Program-made: the position numbers and the translations under genes
Assembly: GCA_947646015.1 (NCBI GenBank)
Contig: CANSEY010000031.1
Coordinates: 1-51,103 of the forward strand
Direction of reading: 5' to 3'
Length of the DNA stretch: 51,103 nucleotides
Source of the DNA: an uncultured Bacteroides sp.
GTDB taxonomy: Bacteria; Bacteroidota; Bacteroidia; Bacteroidales; Bacteroidaceae
Shown here: positions 6,403-47,060 of the stretch, piece after piece
Position numbering within the stretch: position 1 is the first letter of the stretch
Layout: every line of letters begins with the position of its first letter
Notes under the pieces: generated by a model
Database searches by the model: none
What the model was told of the DNA's origin: nothing
What the model saw: the letters and a program-made list of their open reading frames with translations, nothing else

Positions 6403-9400
6403 TCAGAATGAAAGGTTGATACCAAACGAATACTGCCGCATATACGGATAGGTAAAACCGCGTTGTCCCAAGTCATCCGTTACCGAACGTTCCGGATCGA
6501 GTCCTTTCGGCAAATGATCGAATGTATAAAGATTCTCACCGCTAAAGAAGACAGCCAGATTATTGACACCGATCTTAGTCATCCACTTGGACGGGAAATT
6601 ATAAGATAAGGTGATGTTCCGGATACTCAGGTAGGAACCATCCTGCAGATAACGGGTCTGAATACGTGTATTGGCAGCTGTATTTCCGGCAGCTTTCTCA
6701 TACAGACGGGGGAAATAGCTGTCTGTGCGCTCCGGCGTCCAGTAATTCAGTTGTGTGTCATATACCGTCGTCCATGCGTCATAGTGCGGATAGAACAAGT
6801 CATTCATAATCCACAAATCACGTTTGCCTACTCCCTGCAACAGGAAAGATAAAGAGACCCCCTTCCAGTTTGCACCACCGTGGATGCCATACTGATAACG
6901 ACGGGTACTATTACCGATGATCTTACGGTCGCCCGGATCTTTCGTCGTACTTGTACCTCCGTTGATAATATCGTTGTCATCCAGATCTTTATACAGGATA
7001 TCACCCGGATTCGGATTGTAGCCTTCCACTTTTGGAATGCCTGCTTTCAGCTTGCCATCGGCATCAAAATCATCAACAGTATACAGGCGGTCGGTAACAT
7101 ACCCCCAGATTTCACCCAGTTCCATACCTACACGGTAAGTATCTTTATCGTTCTTATCCTTGCCGAAGAGACCTGTCTCGTTATTATACTTGGTAATCTT
7201 GGTTTTAGCATCATAAAGGTTGAAGCCCAGATTGTATTTCACTTTTCCGATCTGATCATTCCAGTCTACAGTGATCTCCCATCCTTTGGAACGAAGATCG
7301 GCAGTATTCTGCAAAGGAGCACTTGCACCCAGCACAGCCGGTAATTCCGCTCCCGGAGCGAGCATACCTTTCGTATCACGACGATACCAGTCGAATACAA
7401 GATTCAGCCTGTTGTTCAATAAACCCAGATCAAAACCGACATCGACAGTCGTCACTTTTTCCCAGGTAAAACTGTTACTGACCAATGCAGCTGGTTTAAG
7501 GGTAGTTACCTTGATACCCGAAACGGTCCAGTAAGCCTGCTCGGCATCCATACCCGGAATATAAGCGTATGGAGTGATACTCTGATTGCCGATATTACCC
7601 CACGAAGCACGCAATTTTAAGTTAGACAATACGGATGTCAACGGTTTCATAAACGCTTCTTCGCTCACACGCCATCCGGCAGAGACAGAAGGAAAGAAAC
7701 CGAAGCGACTGTCTTTCGGAAATTTGGAAGAGCCGTCATAGCGTCCGTTCGTTTCAATCAGATATTTGCCGGCAAAGGAGTAGTTGATACGATAGAATAA
7801 TCCTCTTACTGTATAGCGTTCGAATTTATCTTTAGCGAAATAATCTCCTGTAGCCTGCGATATAGAAGGAAGGTCTTCGTTAATCATGTTCATACGCGAC
7901 ATTTCCGCATAGCGATAGTCACTGCTCTCCTGATTGAAACCTCCCATCACGGTGACTTCATGCTTGCCCCATGTGTTATTGTAGTTTCCGTAGAAGTTCA
8001 AGGCATTATAATCGGTAATGCCGTTGGAGTTTTCATACTTAGAGTTTGCCGTCGAAGTCTCTTTCACAAAGTTACCTCCGTGGGCATAATAGAACTTCTT
8101 TTCAAACTTGGTCTTTTCATTACTCAGATGGTTGTATGTATATTCACCCACCAGTTTGACGTTCTTCAAAGGAGTAATCGTCACCTTTCCGAAGATACGG
8201 ATATTGTTTTTCTGGATAGTCGTCGGATAAGCAAGATTAATCAGATTCCGGGGAGTATTGATCGGTAGTTCTTCTCCGTCGATATTCATTGTTCCGATAG
8301 GGAAATAAGACGGGAAGGCAACGGCTGCTCCCCAGATTCCATATCCTCCCGAAGTCTCCGGCAATTCTGATTTCGAGTTCGTGTATTTGATATCCAGTTC
8401 CGGAGTAATCCATGAGAATACGTCCGAACGGATATAAGAAGACACATTGTAACGTTTATACGCATCCTTGTCCGAGGCCAGCACTCCATTCTCATCGACC
8501 ATACCGAAAGAGAAACGATAAGATATATCTTTCGTGCCGCCACCTACAGAAAGATTGTGCGTCTGCTGGAAACCGGTCTCCATCATATCATCAAACAGAT
8601 TGGTTTCTGCCAGACTATAGCGCAATCCGTCCACCATTGCATACCCATCGGGATAAGCCGAAGGATTGGCATTGTATTCTTTCAATAAATCCAGCCACGT
8701 ATCCACATTCTGTCCACTCTGATAGTTGATGGTTCCCATGTCTTTATAAGCCTGCACCGTCTGAAGCGGTGTTGCCTTACGAGGCATATTGGCAGGTCTG
8801 CTAAATGAGAAATTGTTAGAATAATTAATAGAAAGCCTGGTTGAATCCGATCCTTTCTTTGTCGTAATCAGAATGACGCCAAATGCGGCACGTGCCCCGT
8901 AGATAGCCGAAGAAGCAGCATCTTTCAAGACCGTTACTGATTCAATATCATTCGGATCGAGCATATTGATATCCATTTCTACGTTATCCACCAGAACCAA
9001 CGGTTTGCCATTCTTATCCAGACTGTTGACACCACGGATATTGAAACTCATTTCCTCTCCCGGCCTACCGGAGTTACCCGTAATCTGCAAACCGGGCATC
9101 GCACCTTTCAAGGCATCGCTGACCGACACTACCGGACGGTCTCCCAATACTTCATCCATCTTCACACTGCTTACCGCACCGGTCAGATTCGCTTTCTTCT
9201 GTACACCGTAGCCTACTACCACCACTTCGTCAATCAGACGGCTGTCTTCTTTCAGAGCAATGTGCAAAGGAGTCTGATTTTTGACAACGACTTCCTGCGT
9301 AGCATATCCGATATAAGACACGGATAATCGTGCATTCGGAGTCACCGACAGAGAAAAGTTTCCATCCATATCCGTAATCGTACCTTCCGTAGAATTCAGC

Positions 9401-43172: not shown

Positions 43173-44072
43173 ATGGGAGATAAAGTACTTAAGATAGGAA
43201 GTGTGCATCAATGTAATTGCTGCATGGGGAGTAAGACGCTGCACCCTCTGGTCAGTGTCATCGACCTTTCAAAAGCCGATTTATCCTCCCATACGGATTT
43301 CAAATTCGGATTTTACACGATTCTGTTGAGCGAATGCAAATGTGAAGCCTACAGATACGGACATCAGTACTACGACTTCTCGGACGGGACACTTCTCTGT
43401 CTGACTCCCGGCGAGTCAATCAGTATGAAGGATAGTGACAACACATGTCCTTCCAAAGGATGGATACTGGCGTTTCATCCCGACTTGATCTGCGGCACTG
43501 TGCTTGGAGCGAACATTCGTGACTATACTTTCTTCTCTTATCGTCCCGAAGAAGCACTGCATGTTTCATTACGTGAAAAGCAGGTCATACTGGAACTTCT
43601 GGATAAAATAAATGAAGAATTGCAACGCTGTATCGACTGCTATAGTCAGAAGATCATTTCCAAATACATCGAACTACTGCTTGATTATTGCGAACGCTTC
43701 TACGAACGCCAGTTCATCACACGCAATGAGGCTAACAAAAAGATTATCGAACGGTTTGACCGTCTTTTGGATGATCATTTCAATACTATACAAAGTCAGT
43801 CCTCCGATCTTCCCACTATTGAGGAGTGCGTCAGAGTACTTCGTCTTTCTCCCGCATATTTCAATGATTTGCTGGAATATGAAACGGGGAAATCGTACAA
43901 AGAATATCTTCAGTTCAAGCGTTTCGAGATAGCTAAAGAGTGGTTGATAAATACAGATAAAACACTCAGCCAGATAGCGCAGGAACTCGGTTTCCGGAAT
44001 CCGCAATATTTCAGCCGCCTGTTTAAGAAGATCACCGGTTGTTTGCCGAATGATTTCAAGATGCCTAACTGA
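43173..44072 (+). CDS. AraC-family transcriptional regulator (second of a tandem pair)
   Basis: A 299-residue paralogue of the preceding regulator; the frame can be extended to 43041, but that overlaps the first gene, so the ATG at 43173 (MGDKVLKIGSV) is chosen. Shared stretches include 'TLHPLVSVIDLSKAD', 'FHPDLICGTVLG', 'ELLLDYCERFYERQFITRN' and the second HTH 'LSQIAQELGFRNPQYFSRLF'. The first HTH ('EECVRVLRLSPAYFNDLL') is more divergent. The gene lies 34 bp after its neighbour and is probably co-transcribed. It directly abuts the left 183-bp repeat. Confidence 0.9.
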   Translation: MGDKVLKIGSVHQCNCCMGSKTLHPLVSVIDLSKADLSSHTDFKFGFYTILLSECKCEAYRYGHQYYDFSDGTLLCLTPGESISMKDSDNTCPSKGWILAFHPDLICGTVLGANIRDYTFFSYRPEEALHVSLREKQVILELLDKINEELQRCIDCYSQKIISKYIELLLDYCERFYERQFITRNEANKKIIERFDRLLDDHFNTIQSQSSDLPTIEECVRVLRLSPAYFNDLLEYETGKSYKEYLQFKRFEIAKEWLINTDKTLSQIAQELGFRNPQYFSRLFKKITGCLPNDFKMPN

Positions 44073-44150
44073 CTTTTCTCTTAATAAAAATAGAATTGAG
44101 AATTCAAATTCTTAATCAATGTTATAAAACATACTATTTTTCTTGGATAA

Positions 44151-44181
44151 TTTGCAAAGTTCACAGAAGTCCGTATCTTTG
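44151..44181 (+). promoter_or_regulatory. Consensus promoter in the left repeat
   Basis: TTTG (44151-44154), a 19-bp spacer and TATCTTTG (44174-44181) match the Bacteroides consensus exactly. Confidence 0.85.
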
Positions 44182-44185
44182 CAAT

Positions 44186-44249
44186 GTGTTTTTCATAGTA
44201 TTAGATTTAAGGTTAACAAAGGTTGGAGCAAGGCGTTGCTCCTTTTTTT
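44186..44249 (+). ncRNA. Predicted ~64-nt small RNA (left copy)
   Basis: Between the consensus promoter (-7 element ends at 44181) and a strong terminator lies a transcript of about 64 nt. The terminator stem is ggagcaa (44225-44231) / ttgctcc (44236-44242) with loop ggcg, followed by seven T. The 5' part is A/T-rich and single-stranded-looking (catagtattagatttaagg). No convincing ORF is present. It could be a free small RNA or an attenuator leader, but the terminator is followed by 172 nt before the next ATG. Confidence 0.7.
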
Positions 44250-44306
44250 ATGTCCATACGTGAGCTATTGGACTTTCGTATATAGTAGAATTACGTTATT
44301 TTTCAG

Positions 44307-44314
44307 TAGATTTG
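44307..44314 (+). promoter_or_regulatory. Possible -7 element of the clostripain-like gene
   Basis: TAGATTTG lies 107 bp before the ATG at 44422. The -33 region is poor. Confidence 0.35.
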
Positions 44315-44421
44315 CAGTAACACTTGAAAAGGATACATTCAGATTATATTCTGAATATATAAATCAAAAAGTGCTCTTTTTACGTTATATATCAAGAAGT
44401 AACTTTAATCCTGACAAAACA

Positions 44422-45603
44422 ATGAAGACAGAGCGGAAATATCACCATTTGATTAAATCAGTTATCATCGTACTATTCCTTTCTTTTGGCATGACTTCGT
44501 GCGAAAAGGAAGAGCCAGTTCCGGTACCTACAGAACAAACGGTATTCATGTATCTCCCCTGGTCTGATAATCTCACATCCAATTTCTATCAGAACATCAG
44601 CGACCTTGAAAGTGTAGTTGAAAAGAATATCCTGAATGATGAACGGGTAATTATTTTCATGTGTACCACAGCAACAAAAGCCACTCTTTTTGAACTCGCT
44701 TATGAGAACGGCAAGAGTGTGCGTAAAACTCTAAAGAACTATACAGATCCTGCATATACCACAGCAGAAGGTATCACATCTATCCTAAATGACGTGCAAC
44801 GCTACTCTCCCACCAAACGCTATTCGATGGTTATCGGCTGTCATGGCATGGGATGGATACCCGTATCAAATTCTAAATCACGTAGCGGTCTTCCTACCAA
44901 AATGCACTGGGAATACGAAAATGTACCAATGACACGCTACTTCGGAGGATTAAATGCCCAATATCAGACTGATATAACCACACTTGCCAAAGGAATATCC
45001 AATGCCGGACTTAAAATGGAATATATACTCTTTGACGACTGCTATATGTCAAGCATTGAAGTAGCCTACGCTCTCAAAGATGTGACTGATTATCTGATAG
45101 GATCTACAAGTGAAGTGATGGCGTATGGTATGCCATACGCCGAGATAGGTCAGTATCTAATTGGGAAAGTAGATTATGCCGATATCTGTGACGTTTTTTA
45201 CTCTTTTTATTCCACTTATAGCACACCCTGCGGAACAATCGCTGTCACTGATTGCTCAGAACTTGATAACCTGGCAACTATTATGAAAGAAATTAATCAT
45301 CGATATACTTTTGATCCTTCACTAACCAGTTCTTTACAGAGACTGGACGGATATTATCCGGTTATCTTCTTTGACTATGGTGACTATGTTTCAAAATTAT
45401 GCCCCGATGAAACTCTAGTGGCACAGTTCAACGAACAGCTCAATCGTACGGTGCCATTCAAAAGAAATACAGAATATTTCTATTCGATGAGCAGAGGACA
45501 AGTGAAAATAAATACCTTCTCCGGTATCACAATCTCCGATCCAAGTACGCACTCACTGGCCTCAAAAAAAGAAGAAACAGCGTGGTATGCAGCTACTCAT
45601 TAA
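44422..45603 (+). CDS. Clostripain-family (C11) cysteine peptidase lipoprotein
   Basis: A 393-residue protein with a lipoprotein signal ending at Cys27 (FGMTSC), so it is anchored in a membrane facing the periplasm or the surface. The C11 caspase-like fold is indicated by the catalytic His in 'MVIGCHGMGW' (H141) and the catalytic Cys in 'FDDCYMSSIEVAY' (C207). Such peptidases cleave after Arg or Lys. The longest frame (to 44143) runs through the small-RNA terminator, so the ATG at 44422 is used. Base composition is visibly more A/T-rich than in the neighbours. The gene lies alone between two direct repeats of 183 bp, which suggests a mobile or recombined segment. Confidence 0.85.
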   Translation: MKTERKYHHLIKSVIIVLFLSFGMTSCEKEEPVPVPTEQTVFMYLPWSDNLTSNFYQNISDLESVVEKNILNDERVIIFMCTTATKATLFELAYENGKSVRKTLKNYTDPAYTTAEGITSILNDVQRYSPTKRYSMVIGCHGMGWIPVSNSKSRSGLPTKMHWEYENVPMTRYFGGLNAQYQTDITTLAKGISNAGLKMEYILFDDCYMSSIEVAYALKDVTDYLIGSTSEVMAYGMPYAEIGQYLIGKVDYADICDVFYSFYSTYSTPCGTIAVTDCSELDNLATIMKEINHRYTFDPSLTSSLQRLDGYYPVIFFDYGDYVSKLCPDETLVAQFNEQLNRTVPFKRNTEYFYSMSRGQVKINTFSGITISDPSTHSLASKKEETAWYAATH

Positions 45604-45700
45604 GAACAAAAGATAAGATCAGGAAATCTCTTAATAAAAATAGAATCGAGAATTCAAATTCTTAATCAATGTTATAAAACATACTATTTTTCTTGGATAA

Positions 45701-45731
45701 TTTGCAAAGTTCACAGAAGTCCGTATCTTTG
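45701..45731 (+). promoter_or_regulatory. Consensus promoter in the right repeat
   Basis: TTTG (45701-45704), a 19-bp spacer and TATCTTTG (45724-45731); identical to the left copy. Confidence 0.85.
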
Positions 45732-45735
45732 CAAT

Positions 45736-45799
45736 GTGTTTTTCATAGTATTAGATTTAAGGTTAACAAAGGTTGGAGCAAGGCGTTGCTCCTTTTTTT
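45736..45799 (+). ncRNA. Predicted ~64-nt small RNA (right copy)
   Basis: Identical in sequence to the predicted RNA at 44186-44249, with the same terminator (45775-45799). Here there is no intact gene downstream on the plus strand for 350 bp, so a role as a 5' leader is unlikely for this copy, which supports a free small RNA. Confidence 0.7.
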
Positions 45800-45828
45800 A
45801 TGTCCATACCTCATCTCGTCAGCTTATT

Positions 45829-45990
45829 TTATCCTTTGATCACCGCCATAGGCGCCAATTCCACCAAAGGCTTCACTAAATCCCGCTCATTAGCGATTAC
45901 CCGCGCAATATCTTTGTAAGTTCCAGGTGCTTCATCCAATCCATCCGGCATACACATCGGGCATGATAGCGATATGCTTAAACGCGAAAG
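45829..45990 (-). pseudogene. rtcB (RNA ligase) remnant with a large internal deletion
   Basis: On the minus strand, one frame from 45951 to the TAA at 45829 encodes the C-terminal end of RtcB ('LDEAPGTYKDIARVIANE', ending 'APMAVIKG'). The overlapping frame just upstream (about 45943-45990) encodes the N-proximal RtcB block 'FKHIAIMPDVYAG', resembling the conserved MPDVHxG motif. The middle of the protein, including the catalytic His, is missing and the frame changes at the junction. It is a deletion relic of an RNA-splicing ligase gene. Confidence 0.75.
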
Positions 45991-46022
45991 GAAGCAAAGT
46001 AAAAAGGGAACTACGAAATCTA

Positions 46023-46053
46023 TTTGCGTAACTAAAATTATTTTCTACTTTTG
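46023..46053 (+). promoter_or_regulatory. Promoter of the RmlD-like gene
   Basis: TTTG (46023-46026), a 19-bp spacer and TACTTTTG (46046-46053) form an exact consensus promoter. The predicted leader to the ATG at 46152 is about 93 nt. Confidence 0.8.
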
Positions 46054-46095
46054 TGAAAATAAATATAGAAAAACCATATTTCTGAACCGAAACTC

Positions 46096-46128
46096 ACTCA
46101 TGTGACTGAGAAAAACTCATATGACTGA
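46096..46128 (+). repeat. Two 14-bp leader repeats ACTCATRTGACTGA
   Basis: actcatgtgactga (46096-46109) and actcatatgactga (46115-46128) are spaced by 19 bp within the transcribed leader of the RmlD-like gene. They could be a protein- or RNA-binding site. Confidence 0.6.
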
Positions 46129-46151
46129 AACGAACGACTATAAAACAGCCC

Positions 46152-47060
46152 ATGAAGAATATAATGATTATCGGTGCCAATGGATTCACCGGACGCCAAA
46201 TACTGAATGACCTGTCAAGCAAGGCACAATATAAGGTAACAGGATGTTCCCTGCATCCGGATATCCTTCCGAAGAATGAAGGCAATTATCATTTCACCAC
46301 CACAGATATACGGAATGAAGCAGCTGTAAAGCAACTTTTCAAAGAGGTACAACCCGATGTGGTCATCAACAGTTCCGCCTTATCCGTCCCCGATTATTGC
46401 GAAACGCATCACGAAGAAGCCTGGCTAACAAATGTTACAGCAGTAGAACAATTGGCACATCTTTGCGAAAGTTACAAAAGCCGGTTCATTCATTTATCTA
46501 CAGACTTCGTCTTTGACGGAAAGATAGACGAGAAGTCCGGACAGCTTTATACAGAAGAAAGTCTCCCCGCTCCTGTCAACTATTACGGTTTCACCAAATG
46601 GAAAGGAGAAGAGAAAGTGGCTGAAATCTGTAGTAACTATGCCATTGCCCGCGTAGAGATTGTCTACGGAAAAGCACTACCAGGACAGCATGGAAACATC
46701 GTGCAACTGGTGATGAATCGTTTGAATGCAGGACAAGAAATCCGTGTCGTATCAGATCAATGGCGCACGCCCACTTATGTAGGTGACGTATCAGCCGGAG
46801 TGCAACACCTGATGGAAAATGCCGCAAACGGAATTTTTCATATCTGTGGCGACGAATGCCTGACCATCGCAGAAATTGCTTTTCAGGTAGCAGACTACAT
46901 GAAGCTGGACCGTTCGCTCATTCATCCTGCCACAACAGAAGAAATGCAAGAAGCTACTCCCCGTCCCCGTTTCAGTGGGATGAGTATAGCAAAAGCCCGG
47001 ACTATACTTGGTTACCAGCCACGAAAGCTGAAAGATATTCTCATGGAGTGGAAACATTAA
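46152..47060 (+). CDS. dTDP-4-dehydrorhamnose reductase-like (RmlD-type) SDR protein
   Basis: A 302-residue cytoplasmic Rossmann-fold protein of the RmlD substrate-binding family. The N-terminal 'IMIIGANGFTGRQIL' binds NAD(P)H, 'NSSALSVPDYCETHHEEAW' and 'FIHLSTDFVFDG' are diagnostic, and Y-x3-K is 'YYGFTKWKGEE'. 'VVSDQWRTPTYVGDVSAG' follows the family pattern. No other dTDP-rhamnose gene lies nearby, so the substrate may not be dTDP-4-keto-rhamnose; a general sugar-nucleotide or metabolite reductase is possible. It has its own consensus promoter and a repeat-containing leader. Confidence 0.85.
   Translation: MKNIMIIGANGFTGRQILNDLSSKAQYKVTGCSLHPDILPKNEGNYHFTTTDIRNEAAVKQLFKEVQPDVVINSSALSVPDYCETHHEEAWLTNVTAVEQLAHLCESYKSRFIHLSTDFVFDGKIDEKSGQLYTEESLPAPVNYYGFTKWKGEEKVAEICSNYAIARVEIVYGKALPGQHGNIVQLVMNRLNAGQEIRVVSDQWRTPTYVGDVSAGVQHLMENAANGIFHICGDECLTIAEIAFQVADYMKLDRSLIHPATTEEMQEATPRPRFSGMSIAKARTILGYQPRKLKDILMEWKH

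Follow-up and report, generated by a model that had tools for sequence, protein, structure and literature searches.

Why does a Bacteroides genome keep two almost identical copies of a short unit, facing the same way, on either side of a single peptidase gene? The window, i.e., the whole stretch of 51,103 nucleotides analyzed here, comes from an uncultured Bacteroides sp. and contains a direct repeat at 44077-44266 and 45627-45816, with a start-to-start distance of 1550 bp. An earlier note on this DNA had described a 183-bp unit occurring twice with one base different, and re-reading proved this exact: the single mismatch in the first 183 bp of the repeat is T at 44097 against C at 45647. The small RNA (sRNA) body is the same in copies a and b (67/67), and the upstream part agrees at 108/109 positions, a match of a length far beyond chance. 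From the repeat comparison and site counts between genomes, the homogenized units were placed at 44077-44259 (copy a) and 45627-45809 (copy b), both on the forward strand.

Each unit carries the promoter TTTG-N19-TATCTTTG on the forward strand (44151-44181 and 45701-45731), which has the canonical sigma-ABfr form. The promoter is followed by a predicted transcript of about 64 nt, as the earlier note had proposed, and the terminator that it had named was likewise found directly in both copies, namely a 7-bp stem (GGAGCAA/TTGCTCC) with a GGCG loop and seven T. The computed fold forms this stem, and the minimum-energy fold adds a weak helix in the 5' part; with z = -1.18 for the entire 63-nt strand, overall folding is unexceptional. 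The contexts of the copies had been called different. This was right for the flanks, since an AraC-family gene (stop at 44072) precedes copy a, whereas a clostripain-family (Peptidase_C11) gene at 44422-45603 on the forward strand (PF03415, E 1.1e-16) precedes copy b and an rmlD-like gene comes after it. However, the copies point in the same direction, each lies 3' of the stop codon of a same-strand gene, and jointly they flank the clostripain-family gene.

The RNA itself has a name. Both 67-nt bodies, at 44186-44252 (copy a, with seed region, terminator hairpin, and T run) and 45736-45802 (copy b) on the forward strand, matched Rfam RF04319 (BTncRNA_FopS) at 77.8 bits against a gathering cut-off of 56, and the alignment was full length (1-71). 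The proposal of a free-standing small RNA gene and not a leader thus gained a family, through the very scan that had been suggested. Judged by this match, the window copies are new members of the known FopS family, and the function published for the family would already account for theirs. According to the text of Ruttiger et al. 2025 (PMC11697453), FopS is a multicopy Bacteroides sRNA family with 14 paralogues in B. thetaiotaomicron, where RbpB association and a response to bile salts are reported for the paralogues, along with bands of about 65 and 70 nt. FopS pairing near the start codon represses susC translation, and RbpB counteracts this repression (PMC11697453). The window copies resemble FopS of B. 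thetaiotaomicron in sequence, terminator structure, sigma-ABfr-type promoter, length, and the many copies per genome; unlike there, two same-direction copies surround one gene. The sibling sRNAs LhrC, Qrr, OmrA/B, and those of Neisseria are also multicopy (PMC11697453), and no relationship to them is claimed.

By analogy with the published family, the sigma-ABfr promoter, under some regulator, would make an RNA of ~64 nt, the 5' part of which (GUGUUUUUCAUAGUAUUAGAUUUAAGG) would pair around the translation starts of susC-type mRNAs, thereby blocking translation. The RRM protein RbpB would antagonize this repression, and the hairpin would terminate the transcript. Our target search was for near-full-length complementarity to the FopS 5' part, and it found no complementary susC start: at up to three mismatches in 22 nt, all 10 matches were FopS or GibS-like loci. 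Five further antisense sites had one mismatch in 15 nt; none of these heads a recognizable susC, judged by eye, and two head open frames of merely 17 and 9 residues.

The genome of the window (4.9 Mb, 74.7% complete, 100 contigs) contained 13 matches to RF04319 at E <= 0.001, including 10 over the cut-off, so that the window pair is ordinary in its identity. Seven copies share the 67-nt body base for base. With the window pair set aside, their regions -110 to -38 agreed only at 0.34-0.66 in ungapped comparison (8 of the 13 loci compared). One of the three matches below the cut-off, on contig C45, has a longer 3' part than FopS and, judged by that part, looks like GibS itself. For the window copies, membership of GibS (RF04182) was rejected at 40.5 bits against a gathering score of 115; they align with it best across the first ~30 nt, and the text of PMC11697453 separates the two families in that FopS is without the second seed and GibS uses promoter motif 2. 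Matches to TarB and BTnc231 were far under their cut-offs and were taken as chance. The same genome has two RRM_1 matches.

We searched genome contigs with the neighboring LysO-like protein and obtained 33 loci. The order araC-araC-FopS-C11-FopS-rmlD was found in five of them, namely those of B. faecis (L136), B. xylanisolvens (L138), Bacteroides sp. GM023 (L140), B. congonensis (L141), and an uncultured Bacteroides (L137) that is 97.5% identical to the window. Four other loci, from B. acidifaciens (L139), B. finegoldii (L142), B. faecalis (L143), and B. faecichinchillae (L144), show FopS once and lack the C11 gene at this place; in B. finegoldii, araC and rmlD were likewise not found at the locus. 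The other 24 of the 33 loci gave no FopS at the sensitivity used and within the stretch covered. Read from this gene order, the window pair is old, an ancestral duplication, with the same clostripain-type gene between the copies in five further Bacteroides records.

This synteny bears on the simplest accounts of the repeat. A recent segmental duplication of the 183-bp unit within this lineage would readily leave copies with one base different in 183, but five records keep the same pair at the peptidase gene, some of them only 79.5-81.5% identical to the window over the aligned parts; unless the lineages each made their own duplication at these two sites, the synteny of the pair around the same gene elsewhere makes this explanation extremely improbable, and we reject it. 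Of the two causes that the earlier note had offered for the near-identity, recent duplication therefore falls with the pair's presence at the same place in five other records, and gene conversion is supported by the homogenized sites and hairpin counts given below. Just as hard to credit is an attenuator or leader of the downstream gene. The peptidase gene does come downstream of copy a, and the rmlD-like gene downstream of copy b, but both copies have their own promoter and a complete terminator with seven T, and they belong to a free-standing sRNA family with identical RNA at other loci. A mobile element that repeatedly re-seeds the loci is only a little less improbable. The FopS seed is exact in 13 IMG/VR contigs, parts of the unit (33-64% of the query) occur in 5 phage records, and similar stretches occur in 19 plasmid records, 8 of which cover at least 80% of the query. 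However, the synteny of the loci holds across genomes even though their flanks have diverged, and positions 43500-46500 contain no inverted repeat of at least 20 bases. In two of the viral copies (L179 and L186), the promoter-side sequence is nearly that of the chromosomal locus in genome G021, which makes prophage or binning the likely explanation of these two.

Exchange between the members of the pair was examined in the seven genomes that have both (the window, L136, L137, L138, L140, L141, and G021). Summed over the 21 genome pairs, which are non-independent, 69 sites grouped orthologues and 123 grouped the copies within a genome. Homogenization sites outnumbered orthology sites for the window against B. 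faecis (6 vs 2), B. xylanisolvens (5 vs 1), G021 (9 vs 0), GM023 (8 vs 1), and B. congonensis (7 vs 1). Close genomes retained orthologue signal (18 orthology vs 0 homogenization sites for L140-L141, 8 vs 1 for L138-G021, and 3 vs 2 for window-L137), suggesting that conversion is slow relative to the closest splits. Where L138/G021 were compared with L140/L141 upstream of the sRNA, the orthologue sites were distal (columns 19-48) and the homogenized sites were adjacent to the sRNA (columns 78-98), as expected were exchange to begin in the conserved gene. These site patterns support gene conversion as the process that homogenized the window copies near the sRNA.

The single copy of B. acidifaciens suggests another outcome of exchange. 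It shares 397/400 bases upstream with copy a of B. congonensis and 397/400 bases downstream with copy b, and identity with the opposite copy drops to background past the shared unit. These flanks alone do not separate a deletion from an ancestral single copy, as both give the same flanks. In its flanking genes, B. acidifaciens has its closest counterpart in B. congonensis (97.4% for rmlD, 99.0% for lysO, and 98.7% for the upstream dehydrogenase-like gene) and the next in GM023 (95.5%, 96.1%, and 90.8%, respectively), and both of these keep the pair. The unrooted rmlD and dehydrogenase-like trees unite the three records with a support of at least 0.998, and the lysO tree (0.999) agrees. Only B. 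acidifaciens and B. congonensis, among seven records compared, have FopS 23 bases before rmlD. Because the records closest to B. acidifaciens keep the pair, deletion is the more economical account for this species: its FopS probably holds a deletion junction, the peptidase gene having been lost by a crossover between the copies. An ancestral single copy is equally likely in B. faecalis and B. faecichinchillae, whose records branch away from the others in the trees. Beside the FopS junction, at 7293-8191 of the B. acidifaciens record, two neighboring AraC-family genes are seemingly fused, as if by recombination between paralogues.

Exchange was also sought among dispersed copies. In 11 Bacteroides genomes, 135 matches were counted and 110 copies were read, the remainder including GibS-like ones; L135 (G011) was omitted from the counts, and the orthologue and motif counts use 106 copies, without those that have an extra T (L103, L126, and two in L127). 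The hairpin contains GCG in 72 of the 110 copies, and its two arms vary jointly. Within a genome, one form usually prevails among the GCG-type copies: GAGCAAGGCGTTGCTC in G000 and G001 (7/8 each), G009, G012, and G021 (7/7 each), and G014 (4/6); GAGTCAGGCGTGACTC in G003 (7/7); GAGCAAAGCGTTGCTC in G017 (5/5); and GAGTACAGCGGTACTC in G018 and G022 (4/5 each). G007 has two subtypes, four copies with GGGCTC(A/G)GCGGAGCCC and three with GAGTACAGCGGTACTC, all three with the extra T. A pattern search gave matches in 12 of 14 further genomes. Other hairpin types appeared there, such as GGGATAC/GTATCCC (four G011 copies and two G023 copies), and G016 has three GGGCTC copies together with one GAGTAC copy. 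The extra T lies in the seed (AGATTTTAAGG) and accompanies a GAGTAC-type hairpin in four copies, at L126 and L127 in G007 and at L103 in G014; these copies are possibly a subtype with other targets.

Clustering by nucleotide flanks merged several loci into a group of 34, and the orthology was therefore reworked with flank proteins. Six of the 11 genomes have a common modal hairpin and are little informative. In the genomes with divergent hairpins G003, G017, G018, and G022, paralogue pairs drawn from separate locus records were identical in 37 of 45 cases. The corresponding figure for G007 was 4/20, because its seven GCG-type copies fall in two subtypes, and the five divergent genomes including G007 gave 41/65 with a mean of 2.58 differences. 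In the 106-copy set, orthologue pairs were identical in 66 of 77 cases when the genomes shared a modal hairpin and in 2 of 50 (mean of 4.62 differences) when they did not, the latter figure being partly fixed by the choice of genome pairs with different modal hairpins. The locus OG1 was read in all 11 genomes, and flank proteins put nine of these in a single group. Its hairpin recurs in a paralogue of the same genome in 8/11 genomes (all except G000, G014, and G018), against a shuffled mean of 3.1 and with 8 reached in 23 of 20000 shuffles, which disregard kinship among genomes; without the four extra-T copies, the shuffled mean was 2.9 and the count 14 of 20000. Nine of the 11 OG1 copies have the locus-specific 5' end TGATTTTTTTCATAG, whereas hairpins generally go with the genome, a pattern suggestive of partial conversion tracts. 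The subtypes of G007 weakened the reading of concerted evolution, and the flanking-gene comparison strengthened the reading.

Two further explanations are weighed against these counts. Selection, for example through a co-evolving RNA-binding partner, might fix the whole RNA including the hairpin in each species without recombination. The 5' seed part is nearly invariant among the copies read, so selection very likely acts on the seed, and the subtypes coexisting in G007 could mean different functions; yet the hairpins vary between genomes and on both arms jointly, and in the window pair, sharing within genomes extends to bases upstream of the transcript. We consider this explanation unlikely. 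Slightly less unlikely, though still doubtful, is that all single-copy records, B. acidifaciens included, keep the ancestral FopS and that the peptidase gene and second FopS were inserted later: the single-copy flanks are equal under insertion or deletion, and B. faecalis and B. faecichinchillae, the most distant in the unrooted flanking-gene trees, have one copy. The position of B. acidifaciens among pair-bearing records argues against this, and the later insertion may well hold for the other two.

We thus favor recombination. Very probably, the two copies are fopS genes, dispersed fopS genes recombine, mostly by conversion and sometimes with deletion, and the window pair is ancestral and kept near-identical by conversion. 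As deduced from the sequences, dispersed fopS genes would swap sequence by homologous recombination; the exchange would mostly be gene conversion, by which copies in the same genome stay alike and flanks stay different, and an occasional crossover between neighboring copies would delete the intervening gene.

Upstream of the promoter, both copies contain a conserved element, TTAAnnnATGTTATAAAACA, on the forward strand (44112-44131 in copy a and 45662-45681 in copy b), supported by motif counts and with a putative function. The near-palindrome ATGTTATAAAACAT in copy a lies at 44119-44132, centered at about -60.5 from the sRNA start, and about half of the copies read have the near-palindrome ATGTTATAWAACAT at a fixed place ~60 bp upstream. 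A site with at most three mismatches from ATGTTATATAACAT was found upstream in 65 of 106 copies, where mononucleotide shuffles expect ~3.5, and none within three mismatches in the remaining 41. Of these sites, 55 start at the same place within one base; the other 10, from one orthologous group, are ~32 bp closer, at the expected place of the -33 box. Over 92 copies, the information content of the element is about that of the -33 box and exceeds that of the surroundings. In four genomes (G000, G003, G017, and G021), all 20 sites of TTAAnnnATGTTATAAAACA at up to one mismatch are upstream of FopS, a result that is partly circular because the motif was derived from FopS loci; at up to two mismatches and with the TTAA extension, the same genomes had 34 sites vs 26 for the reversed control. 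The bare palindrome with two mismatches occurred at 10 places in the window's own genome vs 12 for the reversed control and is uninformative alone. Promoter motif 2, as given in the text of Ryan et al. 2020 (PMC7366714), is near-palindromic and centered at -10 and -30, and its position makes it a different element, with the group of 10 sites as a possible exception. The portion of PMC10994844 considered here added nothing on the upstream element. The element is a candidate site for the fopS regulator.

Toward a broader reading, in which conversion spreads hairpins as a mark of species or subtype, crossovers delete genes, and the upstream operator is the site of a co-inducing regulator, we lean only slightly. 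The main text of PMC11697453 raises the question of why many near-identical sRNA copies persist and leaves the regulator of fopS unnamed, and it mentions neither gene conversion, concerted evolution, nor recombination, nor palindromes or inverted repeats. Among the papers listed, none dealt with gene conversion or concerted evolution in sRNA genes of bacteria, judged by titles and abstract openings. Relative to that main text, three results appear new: the concerted evolution of the family, the probable product of a crossover in B. acidifaciens, and the element upstream of the promoter. Recombination can keep near-identical sRNA copies alike, which bears on the persistence of FopS copies, and exchange between copies may confound per-copy deletion and read mapping. 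In addition, the upstream element is a concrete DNA handle for finding the fopS regulator.

Some copies are arranged or built in other ways. In genome G000 (C32:4857-5066 and C32:23838-28091), an RRM_1 gene is located ~19 kb away from a cluster of three FopS copies. Four viral contigs (L183, L187, L188, and L191) have a distinct FopS variant, which differs in the sequence upstream and in a lengthened stretch ahead of the hairpin. Three FopS copies stand in a row with 244-bp spacing at L097 (G003 C2:2378960-2379600).
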